DNA of 64,000 nt from Cyprinodon diabolis (lineage: Eukaryota > Chordata > Actinopteri > Cyprinodontiformes > Cyprinodontidae): contig CM060062.1 in the NCBI GenBank assembly GCA_030533445.1, positions 21,954,329 through 22,018,328 on the forward strand, written 5' to 3'. A program made the translations under genes and the position numbers. The first letter of the stretch is position 1; every line of letters begins with the position of its first letter. Below are positions 10,841-48,409 of this stretch, piece by piece. Under the pieces are notes generated by a model. The model was not told where the DNA came from and did not search any database. It saw only the letters and a list, made by a program, of their open reading frames with translations.

Positions 10841-11341
10841 GGGTAAAGGTTAGAGTTTCAGTGAGTGAGAGGTGTTTTCGTCTATGTGCTCCTTAGTTTC
10901 TTTTATTGATTTCTTGGTATTGGGTAAAATTACTGTACAGTGTATGGTGTCTATATCCTGAAAAACAAAGTAGTCCCAGACTTTGGTCCAGGACAGATAG
11001 TGAAGAAAAAGCTCTGGTCAGGTGTTTACCTAACTGAAATTTCTGGGCAACATTTAAAATGTTATTTGTGGTAGAACACTTGCAAATCACATTGAACAAA
11101 ACCTCTCTATTAAATTGTACAGTACTGCTATTATGCTTTGTGGTGGCTTTATTCAGCACGAACCTTAGAGAGCTAAGTACAGGGCTTCACCTTTCCACAG
11201 TTTGTTAGGTCAAAACTTTGTGGCTGGAACTTGTAATATGACAAACTGTGGAAAGCTTTGTGTGGTATTTATAAGATTTGTAAATGGTTCTTTTTATTCT
11301 TGTGACTTTCTTGTACTAAGTTTTATTTTCCTTCTCCTCAG

Positions 11342-12501
11342 GTATGTTCCTGGCTGACCTCATAGAGAAGTACTTTGTGTCACCCACCTTGTTCAGGGTC
11401 ATCAGGTTGGCTCGTATCGGCCGGATCCTGCGGCTGATCAAAGGAGCTAAAGGCATCCGAACTTTGCTCTTTGCCCTGATGATGTCCTTGCCGGCCTTGT
11501 TCAACATTGGCCTGCTGCTCTTTCTGGTCATGTTTATTTTTTCCATCTTTGGTATGTCCAACTTTGGCTATGTAAAGCATGGAGCGGGCATAGACGACCT
11601 GTACAACTTTGAAACCTTCGGCAACAGTATGATCATCCTGTTTATGATCACCACATCAGCTGGTTGGGATGGCTTGTTGCTGCCGATCCTTAACTATCCA
11701 CCGGATTGTGACCCCAACTTGGAGAACCCTGGTACTTCAGTAAAGGGCGACTGTGGGAATCCCTCAGTAGGAATTTTCTTTTTTGTCATGTACATTATAA
11801 TTTCCTTCCTGATTGTGGTAAACATGTACATCGCCATCATTCTTGAGAACTTCAGCGTGGCCACAGAGGAAAGTGCAGATCCACTCAGTGAAGACGACTT
11901 TGAGACCTTCTATGAGATCTGGGAGAAGTTTGATCCCACTGCCTCCCAGTTCATTAGTTTTGCCAAGCTGCCTGACTTTGCAGACGCTTTAGAGCACCCG
12001 CTTCGTGTGCCAAAGCCCAACACTATAGAACTGATTGCCATGGACATGCCTATGGTGAGTGGCGATCGCATTCACTGCCTCGACATCCTGTTTGCCTTCA
12101 CAAAGCGTGTGCTGGGCGACAGCGGTGAACTGGACATGCTAAGGACACAGATGGAGGAGCGCTTTGTGGCAGCCAACCCGTCCAAGGTGTCGTATGAGCC
12201 CATCACCACGACGCTTCGCCGTAAACAGGAGGACGTCTCTGCCAAAATCATCCAGAATGCCTACCGCGCCCACCTCATCAGGCGTGGAATCATCTTTAAG
12301 CGCCACATTTTATCTAGTAATAAGCTCGAGAATGGTGGGACCAACCAGGAAAAGAAAGAGAGTACTCCATCCACTGCCTCTCTGCCATCTTACGACAGCG
12401 TGACCAAACCTGACAAGGAGAAGCAAGATAAAAGCAAGGAGGACTGGGCCAGAAAAGAGAAGGACAAAAACCAGAAAGATGAGTGGGAATCCAAGTGTTA
12501 G
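11342..12501 (+). CDS. scn8a: scn8a last coding exon: domain IV S4-S6 and C-terminal tail
   Basis: Starts after acceptor cctcag in phase 1 and runs 1160 bp to TAG at 12499. It encodes domain IV S4 ([20 protein letters not shown]), S5, the pore loop with the DEKA alanine (TTSAGWDG), S6 ([20 protein letters not shown]), the EF-hand-like domain, an IQ calmodulin-binding motif ([14 protein letters not shown]), and a charged tail. [27 protein letters not shown] and a terminal ESKC identify SCN8A rather than SCN1A/2A/4A. Teleosts keep two copies (scn8aa, scn8ab), and I cannot tell which this is. The pore loop reads [15 protein letters not shown] where mammals have [15 protein letters not shown]. 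Exon plan and open frame indicate a working gene. Confidence 0.97.
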
Positions 12502-20435: not shown

Positions 20436-21737
20436 CAGGCCCTTAACCTTTAGTGATCGATCATACCTGTGGGTATTTTTCAAATTGTTATGTTGTTTCC
20501 TGCTGAATTTATTCTCACAGTCGACAAAGTGAATTGCAAATTAAAGGGGTTTTCCTACTGTCTAATCCCACGTTGAGCCATCACTGAGATCAAATGACTC
20601 CCTGTATGTACTCAGCTAAGCTCTATTCGCTTTGCCTTCCACTCTCCTTCCCTATATTCATTTTCTGCTCCAACAAAAATGACAAAGGAGGAATGACAGA
20701 ACCCAAGGAGTGGTTGTCAGGATCTTCATTGCATGAAGAGGTGCTATTTTTGAACAAAACCACCTGAGTGAGAACTAGGACCACTCCACATGTATTTGTG
20801 ATATATATAGATACAGGCAGCATAACACCTACACATTCGCCATGGAATGCATCCCACTGTTTTTCCTCCACCAAACTAAAATCCACTATCCCCTCCCTTC
20901 ACTCAGTTTTAGCATAATTTATTACATAAGATGAAAATTTGTATGGACAAAGCACAAGATGTGCACCCCTGCACTGCAAAAGAAATTTATTCAGTTTTCT
21001 TTACAATAACATAAAGCTTGTTCTGCTAAACATTTCCCAAATGGACCATTTCTCTGCATGAGAGGCACTATTTTTAAAACAACAGCACCCCCATGTGGGC
21101 AACGTGAGTACCACGAGCAGCAGCTGAAATTCTTTTTGTCAGAAACAAGTATTGCAAACATTTGGGAATCCCTGACAATAATGAACCCATTAGGTTGTAC
21201 AGGACTTCAGTCTAGATTCTCTGGAAAAAGTATAATTAATTTCCATTGTACTTAAATTGTATAATAATAATAATAATAATAAATACATTTGAGAAACTAT
21301 TCCAGTGTTTCCAGTATTGTGGTCCAAATTGATTTATGATCAAACCAGTTACTTCCATTCAGCGTGATTCAGTTTCATTCAGTCCATTTCAGTTCAATAA
21401 TAATAATACCACAGTGTTAGATTTGGTTAATCATAATATAAAAAAATCATAATATAAAATGCTATATATGCTGACCCCAATTTCGCGTTATCTTAAAATC
21501 ATGTTCAATCACCCAATAAATAAGTTACATTTCAGGGTATAAATCAACTTTTCCAAAGTGTGAGTTTGTATTAAATTTATATATCTACTGTTACAACACT
21601 CCAGTAAGAGCAATTTATTTTCAAATCATAAAAAATGTATCCTATAGATACATTTTTTAAAAGCTTTGAGACATTATTTCAAAACATATTAATCATTTTA
21701 TTTAAAAGGTCAAACCTAAATGTACAAACACCCAAAT
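20436..21737. other. Anonymous DNA downstream of the hormone gene
   Basis: Intergenic AT-rich sequence with a short AAT microsatellite (about 21258-21283). No exon is supported. Confidence 0.6.
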
Positions 21738-21743
21738 TTTATT
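21738..21743 (-). terminator. Poly(A) signal of the glucagon-family gene
   Basis: On the minus strand this reads AATAAA, about 80 bases past the stop codon of the hormone gene. It is the first hexamer after the stop and gives a short 3' UTR, as expected for a compact peptide-hormone gene. Confidence 0.65.
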
Positions 21744-21822
21744 GGACAATACATTAGCAAATTTGAAATGAACATTAATATTTTGTTAATCTACTTCAGA
21801 GGAGGAGTCTTCTTTTGTCGTC

Positions 21823-22422
21823 TCATGCTTCTGTTGGAATTTGGAGCAGGTTGTCATGACATCTGCAAAACATATAAATACCTGGTCGTTAAAGCTACAT
21901 TTGATGTGGTACTACAAATCATCACATGCTCTCCCTGTTTAATTACAGTGAAATCTTTAAACACAAAGATTATTTATGCTCACCCCGCCTCCTTGATGAT
22001 GGTCAGCCACTCCACAAAATCTTTAGCCTTCATCCTGTCAAGGTTGTTGATGAAGTCGCTGGTGAATGTTCCATCCGAATGCCTTTTTAGGTTTTGGATT
22101 ATGTTTGGACCACTTTCTCTCTTATACAAAATTCGTCTATGAAAAATTTTACATAAAACAAATTTGGCCTTTAAATTTTTTATATATTATTATAATGCAT
22201 AGCTACCGGTAAAAAAACTTTAGGTAAAAAAATTTAACAAATTATGTTTATTATGTGATTTATTTTTTCTTTGTTAGCCAAATATGTTTAACCAAATATA
22301 AAATAACCAAATGAAATGTAAGAGTTGTAAAATTACCCACGTTGTCTTGTTTTATGCATAGGCATCTCCTTCGTTTTTGAACAGAACAAAATTAACAAAA
22401 CACATAAGATCACTATCTTCAT
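21823..22422 (-). CDS. Glucagon-superfamily preprohormone (exendin/GCRP-like), three coding exons
   Basis: Coding exons are 22422-22337, 22136-21984 and 21862-21823, with introns of 200 and 121 bp, GT-AG borders and both junctions in phase 2. They encode 92 residues. The first 20 or so form a signal peptide (MKIVILCVLLILFC). A basic propeptide ends in LKR at 45-47, a dibasic cleavage site. The hormone starts at H48: HSDGTFTSD, then LD, and AKDFVEWL. By eye it shares 16 of 29 positions with human glucagon, including H1, G4, T5, F6, T7, D9, F22, W25 and L26. It ends in a short tail with one cysteine and no second dibasic site. One hormone per precursor and H1 argue against proglucagon and against fish GIP, which starts with Y. 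The best fit is the exendin/glucagon-related peptide branch, a secreted ligand of a class B receptor. The identity of the branch is inferred. Confidence 0.85.
21984..22136 (-). CDS. Exon encoding the mature hormone
   Basis: A 153-bp exon with acceptor tttttcatag and donor gtgagc. It carries the end of the propeptide (with NLKR before the cut) and hormone residues 1-32. Having one whole glucagon-like unit in one exon is the normal arrangement in the GCG/GIP family. The long plus-strand ORF over 21720-22142 is only its antisense shadow. Confidence 0.88.
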
Positions 22423-22520
22423 CCTCAGATCACCTTGTAGAAAGACAAGCACAAAGAAATACAAAAACAGTTCATCCTTTTTTTCCATCGTTTAGCTCAC
22501 ATCTGAATACTTTCTCATAC

Positions 22521-22640
22521 CTGTGGGACACGTAGCTTGTCTTCAATGAAATGTCGCTCTTGATTGTGTTGCACACATGCAGAGAATATCAGGAAAAACC
22601 AAGATAAATCCTGCAAAACCTTAGAGGGTGCTCTGTACGG
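22521..22640 (-). other. Probable 5' UTR exon of the hormone gene
   Basis: Non-coding first exon inferred from the TATA box upstream and a clear donor (CCACAG followed by gtatgag, intron starting at 22520). The acceptor of the coding exon (ctacaag before 22433) is 87 bp further on. The 5' end is placed about 30 bases below the TATA box and is approximate. Confidence 0.6.
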
Positions 22641-22665
22641 GAGCTGTACTGCAACAAATTCATCA

Positions 22666-22697
22666 CTTTATAAAGGCATCAGGCGTCACCAGGTGAC
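22666..22697 (-). promoter_or_regulatory. Core promoter of the hormone gene: TATA box and palindrome
   Basis: The minus strand has cctttataaag (TATA, 22675-22666). About 10 bases upstream lies a perfect palindrome GTCACC-A-GGTGAC (22685-22697), which overlaps a CAGGTG-like E-box and is joined to a TGACG half CRE. E-box and CRE-type sites are common in pancreatic and gut hormone promoters. Factor identity is inferred. Confidence 0.6.
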
Positions 22698-28820: not shown

Positions 28821-29289
28821 GAGAGTAATAATAAGTTAGAACTAAACCTGAGTACTACACATTATAAACTGGCATGCCAGAGTATGAGTGAGGCACCGTC
28901 TCTGTCGATTTGATATAGAAATGATACTGTGACCCTCACCTTGGGAACATGCCGTGCTGTAAACCATATTTATAACCATTAGTTCACTCTCACCTACAGA
29001 CAGCTGGGTTTCTGTCAAGGGTATTGTCAAAGTTAGTTAGTGATCTAAGGTGCTAGTAAATTCTGCTGTCTTTGTCAGGAATCTGTAAGACATTATTAAG
29101 AGGTTTCATTTTCTAATTTGCTTAGACCAGTGGTCTCAAACTAACTTTTAGACCTGTCTCTGCAACGACACACCTGACTTAAATATAAGTCAATTAGCAG
29201 AGTTTGGCTGCTGCTAGTGTGACAGTTAAGCTATTTCATTTAGTTGTTTAGGGGAAAGAATAAATGTAAAAGTAGCAGGACACACACCC
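28821..29289. other. Anonymous repeat-rich spacer
   Basis: Lies between the BEL/Pao relic and the LINE. A segment near 29128-29200 (agaccagtggtctcaaacta) looks like the edge of a short interspersed element. No gene is seen. Confidence 0.4.
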
Positions 29290-31545
29290 TCATTTTGGCT
29301 TCCAATAGAGAAAGTGATTAAGAGGACCAATTCTCTTCACTATATATATGCTCCCAATCAGCTATATCTGTCTATGAATCCAGATGAAGCTAACCCATTA
29401 CATAGATTACAGGCATGTCTTGAAGACATAAAAACCTGGATGTCTCTTAACCTTCTGCTTCTTAATGCAGAAAAAACAGAAATTATAGTCTTTGGACCAC
29501 AGTCTTTGAAAAATAAGCTGATTAGTTAGTCACTTTATTTGGATGGGATTAAACTGATTTCAGATAATAAAGTAAAAAATATCTGTGTTATTTTTGAGCA
29601 GGACCTGTCATTTAAATCCCATATTAAAGATGTTTGTAGAATTTCCTTCTTTTATCTGCAGAATATTGTAAAAGTTAGAAATATCCTGTCCAGGGGTGAA
29701 GCTGAGAAACTAGTCCATGCATTCGTTATTTTAAAGCTGGACTGTTGTAATTCTTTACTATCAGGAAGTCCCCAAAATGTAGTTAAAAGCCTTCATCTGA
29801 TTCTAAAATGCTGCAGCCAGAGTTCTGATGAAAATTAAAAAGAGAGATAATATCTCTCCTATCCTAACTTCTCTTCATTGACTTCCTGTTAAATCCAGAA
29901 TAGAATTTAAAATCCTCCTTCGGCCTTATAAAGCCTTAAATGGCCAAGCTCCACCTTACATCAGAGATATAATTGTTCCTTATGTTTCTAACAGAGAAAT
30001 TCACCCTCAATCTGCAGATTTATTAGTGGTTCATAGAATTTCTAAAAGTAGAATGGGAGGCAGATCTTTTAGTTATCAGGCTCCTCTCTTACGGAACCAA
30101 CTACCAGTTTTAATCCATGAGGTAGACACCTTGTCTACTTTTAAGGGTAGGCTTAAAACTTTCCTTTTTGACAAAACTTATAGTTAGACTGGCTCATGTT
30201 ATCGAGTGCTATCTCTATAGTTGTGCTACTATAGGCTAAGACTGCTGGAGGACATAGGGACCCCTTTTTCATTATTCTGCCTCATTCTATTTCTATTCTC
30301 CCACTCTGCAGAATTTGTCAGTTCAATCTCTAATGCCATGGTCCCTCTGATTTTTCTCATATTAGCTTCATCTGGTATGTTCTTGTTTGGCTGTGACACC
30401 ATCCTGGAGAAAAATATTAGCTGTGCTACTGCCAACAACACTTTGTTTGTAGATGATGGAGCTCGGCCTGTTTTTCAGTGTTGTCCTGTACAAAACGAAC
30501 ACGAAACGCTAATATTTTCCAGAACGTTTGTTCTAAAGATGGAGACGTAAAATAAATGTGATCGTCCACACGAATGCATGAGAACGCTGCAAAATGTATG
30601 CCAGGCCTGTAAGTGGCGCTGTGGTGCCAAAGCAAAAATAGGCGACGAAATGTTGGGCATGCGCACTAATATTTATACATGGTTGCCCTGCGGGTCCATT
30701 TTCGTGGTTCAGTCAAATTCAGGTGCTGAACTATGTCGTCGATATTGCTCTGTTCTTCCTGGAGATATTCCAGAAGAAGAAGATTCTGTTGTAAGCCCGA
30801 CAGCAGGGTGAGTAGCATGAGCAGCAACCATTCAACACAGTACGGCACCATTGTTGTTGTGATACTGTGTCGCGCATGCGTGTTTAGAGGAGACGCTATG
30901 ACGCATGCGTGTAAAAAAAAAATGCGGTTAGAGCTTAAAGATGGAAACGCGAAAACAGCGTTTCAAAATCTTCCCACTCTGAAGGCTGAATAAAAAAAAG
31001 ATTGTTTACAGACCCTCGAAACGCCGTTTTCGTATGGATGAGAGGCTGGTTTGGTGAAAAATTTGTGCGTTTAGGCCAGGGTTCGGCTTCGTGTGGACAG
31101 GGCCTGTGACTAACTGGATGTTCTCTCTTCGTCCTCTGATGTGGGAGCTGGCTTGGACCTCGTCTGTCTGGCTGTGTGTTTTTCTGGACTGGGCAGCCTG
31201 TGGAGCTGGTTTACAGTTGCCTTTTGTATCTCTGCTTCTTTCTTTTGTCTGATTCTGCCTCCTTGAACCCCAGTCAGCCTCTGCAGATAGCTGCTCACAC
31301 TGAGCCTGGTTCTGCTGGAGGTTACTTTTTGTTAAAAGTGAATTTTACTCTCCACTGTCACTACAACCATAATGGTGTGAGTGATTGCCTTCAAGTCAAT
31401 GAGTTGATGCAATCAACTGGTTTTTCTAGATAGAAAACTTTTAATCAATTTGACTGGATGATCTGGTTGAATTGTGAGTGCCTTGAGATGACATGTGTTG
31501 TGAATTGTTTTGAATTGGCACTATATAAATCAACTAAATTTAATT
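29290..31545 (+). mobile_element. Rex1/CR1-like LINE remnant with an internal insertion
   Basis: From about 29340 conceptual reading gives QLYLSMNPDE, CLEDIKTWMSLNLLLLNAEK, LVHAFVILKLDCCNSLLSG and RPYKALNGQAPPYIRDI. This is the 3' half of a non-LTR reverse transcriptase. The catalytic YADD position reads YAPN, and stops and frameshifts break the frame. The 3' tail resumes at about 31110 and ends in ccttgagatgaca and cactatataaatcaac, as in common fish LINE tails. A non-LINE block of roughly 650 bp (about 30450-31105) sits between them. The clade name is from memory. Confidence 0.65.
30450..31105. mobile_element. Non-autonomous DNA element inside the LINE
   Basis: A GC/CpG-richer block interrupts the LINE 3' region. 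Both ends carry related inverted motifs: cgtccacacgaatgc near the left, and at the right cttcgtgtggacagggcct, whose complement contains gtccacacgaag. Inner parts share aaacgccgttttcg-like sequence. Boundaries and target duplication are unclear. It is hAT-like by appearance only, with no transposase. Confidence 0.4.
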
Positions 31546-46592: not shown

Positions 46593-46969
46593 GACTCTGT
46601 GTTGTACTCGAGATAGTAAGGTTTGCAGCTGCAGCAGGGATATTTGACGAAGCCAAGTTTTGTTGACAGATCTGGGATCTGGATATCCGGTAAAATAAAA
46701 AAATAAAAAATATCTTAGGCCTTAGAATAGGTGTGTGTGACTGTGTGGGAGTGTGTCAGGAAACAATCGAACCTTTCAGGTTCTGTTGTATCATATTAAA
46801 ACAGCAGGGGTTAATACAGTACAACTCTGGTGGATGCAGAGGCAAGATTTTCTCACCTGAAAAGGTAGAAGCAGAAATTACCACAACAATGTTTGGGTGC
46901 GTTCCTGCTGAATAAACATCCAGTGCGTAGAATACCCTAGGTGATTGTACTGGACTAAATTCTTTAAAA

Positions 46970-47930
46970 ATGGGACAAGGTATTAGTAAGAAGGAAATGC
47001 CAGGTGATGTTAGATGGATGGTGGCGTGTTGTGGTGGTGACCCAGAGTTTGCCAGAAAGTGGATTGAGAAGGAGGACTGGAATGGAAAGTTGAGAGTTGA
47101 GCTGCTGACAAAGATTCAGCAGAAGGTGGAGATGAAGTTAGTGTATAAATCAAAAAGAAAACAAGCTAAATACAGAAAAGAATTAGAAGAGTTAAATAAG
47201 TGGATTATGCAAGCAAAAGATAGGGAAAGCCAAATACAACAGAAGAAGGATAGAAAGACAGCTACAATTGCTGCTGTAAAAGTTAAAGCTGATGAAGAAA
47301 CTGTTGTATCCCGTATGCTTCCTCAATATCCTGATCCTAATCAAATTCAAGGGGGTGATGGGGTTCAAGCAGTGGCATCAGCTGTGCAGGAAGGTGGACA
47401 TAAACCCCATCACGGTGAATATGAACACAGCCATGCCACTGTTCCTCCTCCAGTAGCCCCACCATCGCATAATGATATTGGAGGAGCAGGAGCAAGCCCC
47501 CTGTCCATATCGTCCTCTGTGGATGGTATGGAACTCAGTGCCCCTGACCCTTGTGCGCATGAATTATGAAAATCAAAAAGGGATGTGAAGCTTAATTCAA
47601 AGTATTACAAAAATGATTATCAAATAGAGCCTTGTAAAAAAGGACCATCTGCCCCTATTTATCCAAGATTGGCTGAATTAAAAAAACAAGAACAGGACCA
47701 AGATCCTGGGGAGGGGGCATGTGCTTTTCCAATGTTAGAGGTGGCCAACCCTCAATATGGTCAACGCACGGGACCCCAAGATAATGACCCACTAGATCAT
47801 AGACCCACTATTCTTGTGTATAGGCCATGGACAGATGCAGAGATGCAGACTGCCTGTCAAGGTTTACCTCCAGCCAGACAGAACCCAGTTAAATGGTCCG
47901 AGGATGTTAAAAATAGATTGAGAAAATTCA
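46970..47930 (+). pseudogene. Endogenous retrovirus gag remnant
   Basis: Opens with an ATG whose second codon is glycine, the usual myristoylation context of retroviral matrix. It runs 199 codons to TGA at 47567-47569: a basic coiled region around residues 50-100, then a proline-rich stretch. The same frame continues beyond the stop into a capsid-type start (the PTILVYRPWTDAEM region, about 47800) and then breaks off at about 47930, where most of capsid, nucleocapsid, protease and reverse transcriptase is missing. It resembles gamma/epsilon-type fish retroviruses. It is inactive. Confidence 0.8.
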
Positions 47931-48409
47931 TGGCAGAAACAGGAAAGCCATGGCCAGAGTGTTTGCACTTGGTAAAATTACTCATGAGGATTATTCCAAC
48001 ATCTGATGGTTTGACCCCTTTTGAAATAGTGAATGGGAGACCTTTTGTTCTACCTCTATGGGAAGGACAGCCATAGGCAGAAAAAGAACAAGATGACATT
48101 GACCCACTAACTAAGCGGATGCTGAAACTTTTTAGCGACAAAACTGTTCGGAAAACATGTAATCTGCCTAGTGCTTTTGTTTCCCCACAGGAAGGCCTGA
48201 AGCCTGGAGACTGAGTGCTGATTAAAATCATCAAAAGGAAAACTTGGAAAGCTCCGAGGTGGGAAGGACCCTACATAGTGCAACTAACAACCCCCACTGC
48301 CGTGAAAATCCAGGAAAGAGACACTTGGATCCACCAGAGTCATTGTAAGCTAATTAAAAACTTTCCACAGCAAGAAGCCCAATTACCTTCACAGGAACCC
48401 CATAACTAA
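47931..48409 (+). pseudogene. Endogenous retrovirus integrase C-terminal remnant
   Basis: Joined in the same frame directly after the gag remnant. It shows the end of the integrase core (a GLTPFEIVNGRP segment) and the C-terminal domain (around KAPRWEGPY and the WIHQSHCK region). Stops at 48074 (TAG) and 48212 (TGA) interrupt it before the final TAA at 48407. The catalytic part of integrase and all of the reverse transcriptase are deleted, so no function remains. Confidence 0.8.

Follow-up and report, generated by a model that had tools for sequence, protein, structure and literature searches.

GCGL, GCRP and exendin-like are names for a single kind of gene (2021 review, PMC8312260), which a survey of cichlids named GCG2 (PMC4992253). 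According to earlier descriptions, which date from 2012–2013, this kind occurs in fish, frogs and birds; the accessible text of Park 2013 (PMC3679108) and of the 2021 review (PMC8312260) gives it as absent from mammals, and that of the former describes zebrafish as without a GCRP gene. Medaka GCRP activates its receptor, GCRPR, via Gs and Gq/11, and the motif at positions 16–18 of the hormone was published as KM/IK (PMC3679108). The GCRP locus was placed in a HOXC-linked block (PDE1B, HOXC13, ERBB3, IGFBP6, SLC4A8 and others), and a 2R origin of GCRP was argued from those genes, which are other than the neighbours described below (PMC3679108, section 5). The gene that we describe here is one more copy of this known kind, published by 2013, and is almost certainly the GCRP (GCGL, exendin-like) orthologue of a cyprinodontiform fish.

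The window, i.e. the whole 64,000-nt stretch of Cyprinodon diabolis DNA that was analysed, carries a minus-strand gene at 22660-21720, in which exon joining gave four exons, three of them coding. Its features and the neighbouring exon are as follows:

22684..22688, minus strand: TGACG, half-CRE-like, just upstream of TATAAA (motif match only)
22667..22672, minus strand: TATAAA promoter motif (motif match only)
22521..22660, minus strand: exon 1, 5′ UTR; 5′ end inferred from the TATA box, donor at 22520
22434..22520, minus strand: intron 1, GT-AG; contains an alternative in-frame ATG at 22488
22337..22433, minus strand: exon 2, ATG at 22422, signal-peptide-like precursor start
22137..22336, minus strand: intron 2, GT-AG
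21984..22136, minus strand: exon 3, encoding the KR pairs 34-35 and 46-47 and hormone residues 1-33
22004..22081, minus strand: core hormone, equal to the Hormone_2 match, precursor residues 48-73, HSDGTFTSDFINNLDRMKAKDFVEWL
21863..21983, minus strand: intron 3, GT-AG
21720..21862, minus strand: exon 4, last 13 residues including hormone Cys34, stop ending at 21823, 3′ UTR (end inferred)
21738..21743, minus strand: AATAAA, first polyadenylation motif
21697..21702, minus strand: AATAAA, second polyadenylation motif
11320..12501, plus strand: SCN8A, last coding exon, convergent with the hormone gene (tail to tail)

The TGACG motif resembles half of a cAMP-response element. Each of the three introns opens with GT and closes with AG, both coding introns are in phase 2, and translation of the intron intervals (22520-22434, 22336-22137 and 21983-21863) gave stops in all three frames; the spliced frame runs for 92 codons without a break, from the ATG at 22422-22420 to the stop codon ending at 21823. 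Splicing is predicted on the basis of sequence and homology. In the MKIV frame, exon 1 ends in RQATCPT/GDLRM, downstream of a stop, and the exon 1/exon 2 junction is supported by the Sebastes and Melanotaenia models, since these read through it with similar residues (RQAST..FPE/GDLRM and REAST..FPT/GELRM, respectively). The upstream ATG at 22488 would add 22 residues and corresponds to the start of the Cyprinodon tularosa model; the start codon of the hormone gene may therefore be either the ATG at 22422 or the upstream ATG, as in that model.

The precursor has a strongly hydrophobic N-terminus (9-residue Kyte-Doolittle means of 2.8–4.0 for windows starting at residues 1–7) and carries one glucagon-type peptide, with LKR immediately preceding HSDGTFTSD; this hydrophobic start together with the KR site indicates a secreted prohormone. 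Pfam family PF00123 (Hormone_2) matches residues 48-73 (28.6 bits, cut-off 21.2, E 1.4e-6), and twenty solved-structure sequences match at E <= 0.001, by name glucagon, oxyntomodulin, exendin-4 and designed agonists. The initial annotation, which was made from the DNA alone, had put forward three coding exons with GT-AG borders and matching phases, a predicted signal peptide, the LKR site, a TATA box, a 5′ UTR exon and AATAAA, and had named as targets for spliced reads the intervals that prove to be the three introns; all of these agree with the structure described here. The segment ESGPNIIQNL (window 22113-22088, precursor residues 36-45) sits between the two KR sites, and the NII.N[LF]KR end recurs across several fish rows, so that this stretch might yield a second, small peptide.

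A protein search with the precursor gave 58 matches among 59 candidates at E <= 1. By visible name, 28 of these homologues are from fish and 23 from birds, caecilians and other tetrapods, seven being nameless, and no mammal is among the visible names. The closest is a C. tularosa protein named 'pro-glucagon-like' (P0001), which is identical at 85 of 92 residues; over hormone residues 1-26, the window peptide shows no difference from rows P0001, P0011, P0013 and P0017 (C. tularosa and Poecilia). The dibasic pair before the hormone is KR in 57/58 homologues and RR in the other. Positions 16–18 of the window peptide read RMK, with R16 where the published KM/IK motif has K; across the 58 homologues, these positions read RMK (27), KIK (24), KMK (4), RFK (2) and KKK (1). 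Since RMK is the commonest form, the published motif appears to be too narrow.

We compared the peptide with those in Table 1 of Park 2013 (PMC3679108; Exe-4 omitted) over 28 positions, and the top matches were the GCRPs of chicken (20), medaka (19) and Xenopus (18), followed at 16/28 by chicken GLP-2, human glucagon and chicken glucagon; GIP rows matched at 11–12 positions. An earlier count by eye of 16 of 29 positions equal to human glucagon was reproduced with the Table 1 sequence. In a tree of 36 peptides (27 columns), ten fish GCRPs, those of medaka and the window included, formed a clade with support of 97/85. All 15 GCRP rows came together with support of 52/20, in 50% of bootstrap trees, on these 27 columns of little resolution, and the GCRP, GCG and GIP groups formed one open fork.

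Downstream of the hormone gene, the exon assigned to SCN8A scored 754.8 bits against the human Nav1.6/SCN8A chain, well above the 632.2 bits of SCN2A, and ends 9.2 kb from the polyadenylation motif of the hormone gene. Some 66 kb separate the coding sequence of the hormone gene from the start of FIGNL2; a further gene between the two is possible, as this stretch was seen in the form of ORF lists. The FIGNL2 protein, equal to that of C. variegatus at 667 of 674 residues, places the genome within or near Cyprinodon. Presumably, SCN8A and FIGNL2 belong to the HOXC-linked block introduced above, and we take it that the human GCG, SCN2A-type and FIGN genes lie close together, which would fit an origin of this gene order by whole-genome duplication. 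A literature search on SCN8A with exendin returned no title concerning synteny. Elsewhere in the window, two adjacent plus-strand ORFs (46931-47569 and 47570-48076) resemble retroelement gag and pol pieces, and three consecutive plus-strand ORFs at 29230-30187 resemble, by eye, the terminal part of a LINE-type reverse transcriptase; neither set returned a Pfam match at E 0.01. In the flanks, Pfam coverage comprised selected ORFs and three loci.

A Hormone_2 scan of the whole 1.22-Gb assembly returned 13 exons above the cut-off and 13 more matches below it. The window gene provides the only exon above the cut-off on C1 and is present as a single genomic copy, and the two proglucagon genes are separate from it: a gcga-type gene with GCG, GLP-1 and GLP-2 exons on C24, and a gcgb-type gene with GCG and GLP-1 exons on C7. 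Other exons above the cut-off that were read are presumably VIP/PACAP/GHRH-like, among them L018 (G000:C20:21121030-21121113, HADAIFTNSYRKVLGQ..), which we take to be a GHRH-like peptide exon. No GIP-like exon was seen in the 12 of 13 exons above the cut-off that were read (L021 on C6 excepted), although a diverged GIP could escape such a scan. A tandem array on C653 (G000:C653 2327-61957, L026-L035), which repeats every 6,621 bases and has an open frame of 746 residues, gave a weak Hormone_2 match (18.7 bits, below the cut-off), which is probably due to chance.

Three other explanations of the locus were weighed. A chance similarity to a glucagon-type hormone has practically no probability: a profile built from 57 homologues, with the window and C. 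tularosa rows excluded, scored 78.2 bits at the hormone exon, the next best score in the window being 11.5 bits, whereas its best score on 50 shuffled windows (shuffled in two-base blocks) was 13.6 bits. These scores and the full-length orthologue found in the protein search refute it, and no point in its favour was found. It is very improbable that the gene is a third proglucagon or GIP gene that has grown GCRP-like. The 16 of 28 positions shared with human glucagon, the names glucagon-like and pro-glucagon-like given to models from other fish and the open fork of GCRP, GCG and GIP on 27 columns would fit such an origin, but both proglucagon genes are accounted for elsewhere, each with GCG and GLP-1 exons and one also with GLP-2, while the profile scan of the window found a single hormone exon here and not a GCG-then-GLP-1 layout. 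Moreover, the best matches, by the 28-position count and in the tree, are GCRPs, and the peptide begins with His1, unlike the Tyr1 of the human and chicken GIP rows in the accessible Table 1 of PMC3679108.

An intact-looking but silent gene, i.e. a young pseudogene, is also very improbable. In its favour, the precursor and its C. tularosa counterpart differ at seven of 92 positions, whereas FIGNL2 differs from that of C. variegatus at seven of 674, and the dibasic K30-R31 site behind the hormone is absent. However, these two protein comparisons use different species, the reading frame is open, the splice borders and the motifs for promoter and polyadenylation are intact, and hormone residues 1-26 are unchanged in the C. 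tularosa and Poecilia rows. The identification as a GCRP orthologue accords with the GCRP/exendin-like branch to which the gene had been assigned at the outset, now seen in the RMK at positions 16–18 and the fish clade with medaka GCRP.

For a functional GCRP gene, we infer transcription, precursor processing, receptor and physiology as follows. The 92-residue precursor would be sent to secretion by its hydrophobic start, as judged by hydrophobicity; cleavage by a prohormone convertase behind K46-R47 would then free a glucagon-like helical peptide beginning at H48. By analogy with medaka GCRP, the target of the released peptide would be GCRPR, a class B1 receptor, with a rise in cAMP via Gs, and the Gq/11 coupling known besides Gs for the medaka peptide might likewise apply. 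A genome search for receptors gave at least 139 7tm_2 matches from the 150 of 222 candidates that were scored, and a TM3-type stretch was read by eye in 40 loci (L048-L067 and L068-L087). Three glucagon-receptor-like genes were found: L078/L088 on C5, L070 on C16 and L084/L089 on C10. Against solved structures, the L078 exon alone scored best with VIPR1 (58.2) and GCGR (56.9), the joined L088 pieces with GCGR (138.4), GIPR (132.4) and GLP-1R (123.4), L070 with GCGR (59.9) and L089 with an unnamed chain (87.6), VIPR2 (86.1) and GCGR (83.5); as these pieces are too short to tell GCRPR apart, none of the three genes is assignable to it.

The C-terminus of the precursor differs between lineages. 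At hormone positions 30-31, the window gene has K30-E31 and thus no K30-R31 pair; the 28 named-fish rows have KR (12), KQ (12), KE, KP, TN and EQ (one each), so that K30-R31 is missing from 16/28 named-fish models vs 1/23 tetrapod models, and KR is present in 4/7 unnamed rows. Position 34 is Cys in ten of the named-fish rows, another residue in five and without a letter in 13; these counts draw on many models without the last exon and on rows from related species. One tentative and rather doubtful reading of these residues is that several fish lineages, this fish included, have lost the K30-R31 cut and would secrete a GCRP of ~45 residues with a conserved free Cys34, through which two hormone molecules might pair or the peptide be tethered. 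The tail might still be trimmed at other sites, by convertases or carboxypeptidases. If the reading is true, the 29–33-residue forms assayed so far are not the natural GCRP ligand.

Several further points of the initial annotation stand: the gene adjoins SCN8A, the proposed search with the 92-residue translation found orthologues in related fish, and the loss of this branch in mammals is in keeping with the absence given in the accessible text of PMC3679108 and PMC8312260 and with the visible homologue names. Its description of the gene as unflagged, with the novelty that this implied, is not borne out, because orthologues from other fish are annotated (e.g. 'glucagon-1-like'), models of the same gene stand in the 28 fish-named rows, and the kind had been described in 2012–2013. 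The existence of those models likewise speaks, for the species concerned, against the expectation that ORF-based annotation would miss the gene. Fish and bird entries of the gene are named inconsistently, as pro-glucagon-like, glucagon-1-like, glucagon-2-like or exendin-3-like, and neither GCRP nor GCGL occurs in any visible name among the 58 homologues. The locus is thus a further, well-placed copy of a hormone gene absent from mammals, whose entries are spread through fish databases under varied names; correct naming would help work on fish glucagon signalling.

Compared with known systems, the window gene shares with medaka GCRP a single glucagon-type peptide, 19/28 positions, MK at 17-18, an AAK/AK core and the lack of a dibasic pair at 30-31 (medaka K-Q, window K-E). 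It differs in having R16 and HSDGTF where medaka has K16 and HTDGMF (Table 1 of PMC3679108), and its predicted product would have 45 residues if uncut behind the hormone, against the 33 listed for medaka GCRP. The C. tularosa protein P0001 shares 85/92 residues and the tail with Cys34, but its database model begins 22 residues earlier, at an ATG inside intron 1 of the window gene. Chicken and Xenopus GCRP share 20 and 18 of 28 positions, respectively, and MK at 17-18, but have K16, and the tetrapod GCRP rows have kept K30-R31 in 22/23 cases. Proglucagon (GCG, GLP-1 and GLP-2) shares the superfamily, His1, a dibasic site and the exon-per-hormone layout, but has two or three hormones per gene, lies at other loci and carries other residues at positions 16–18.
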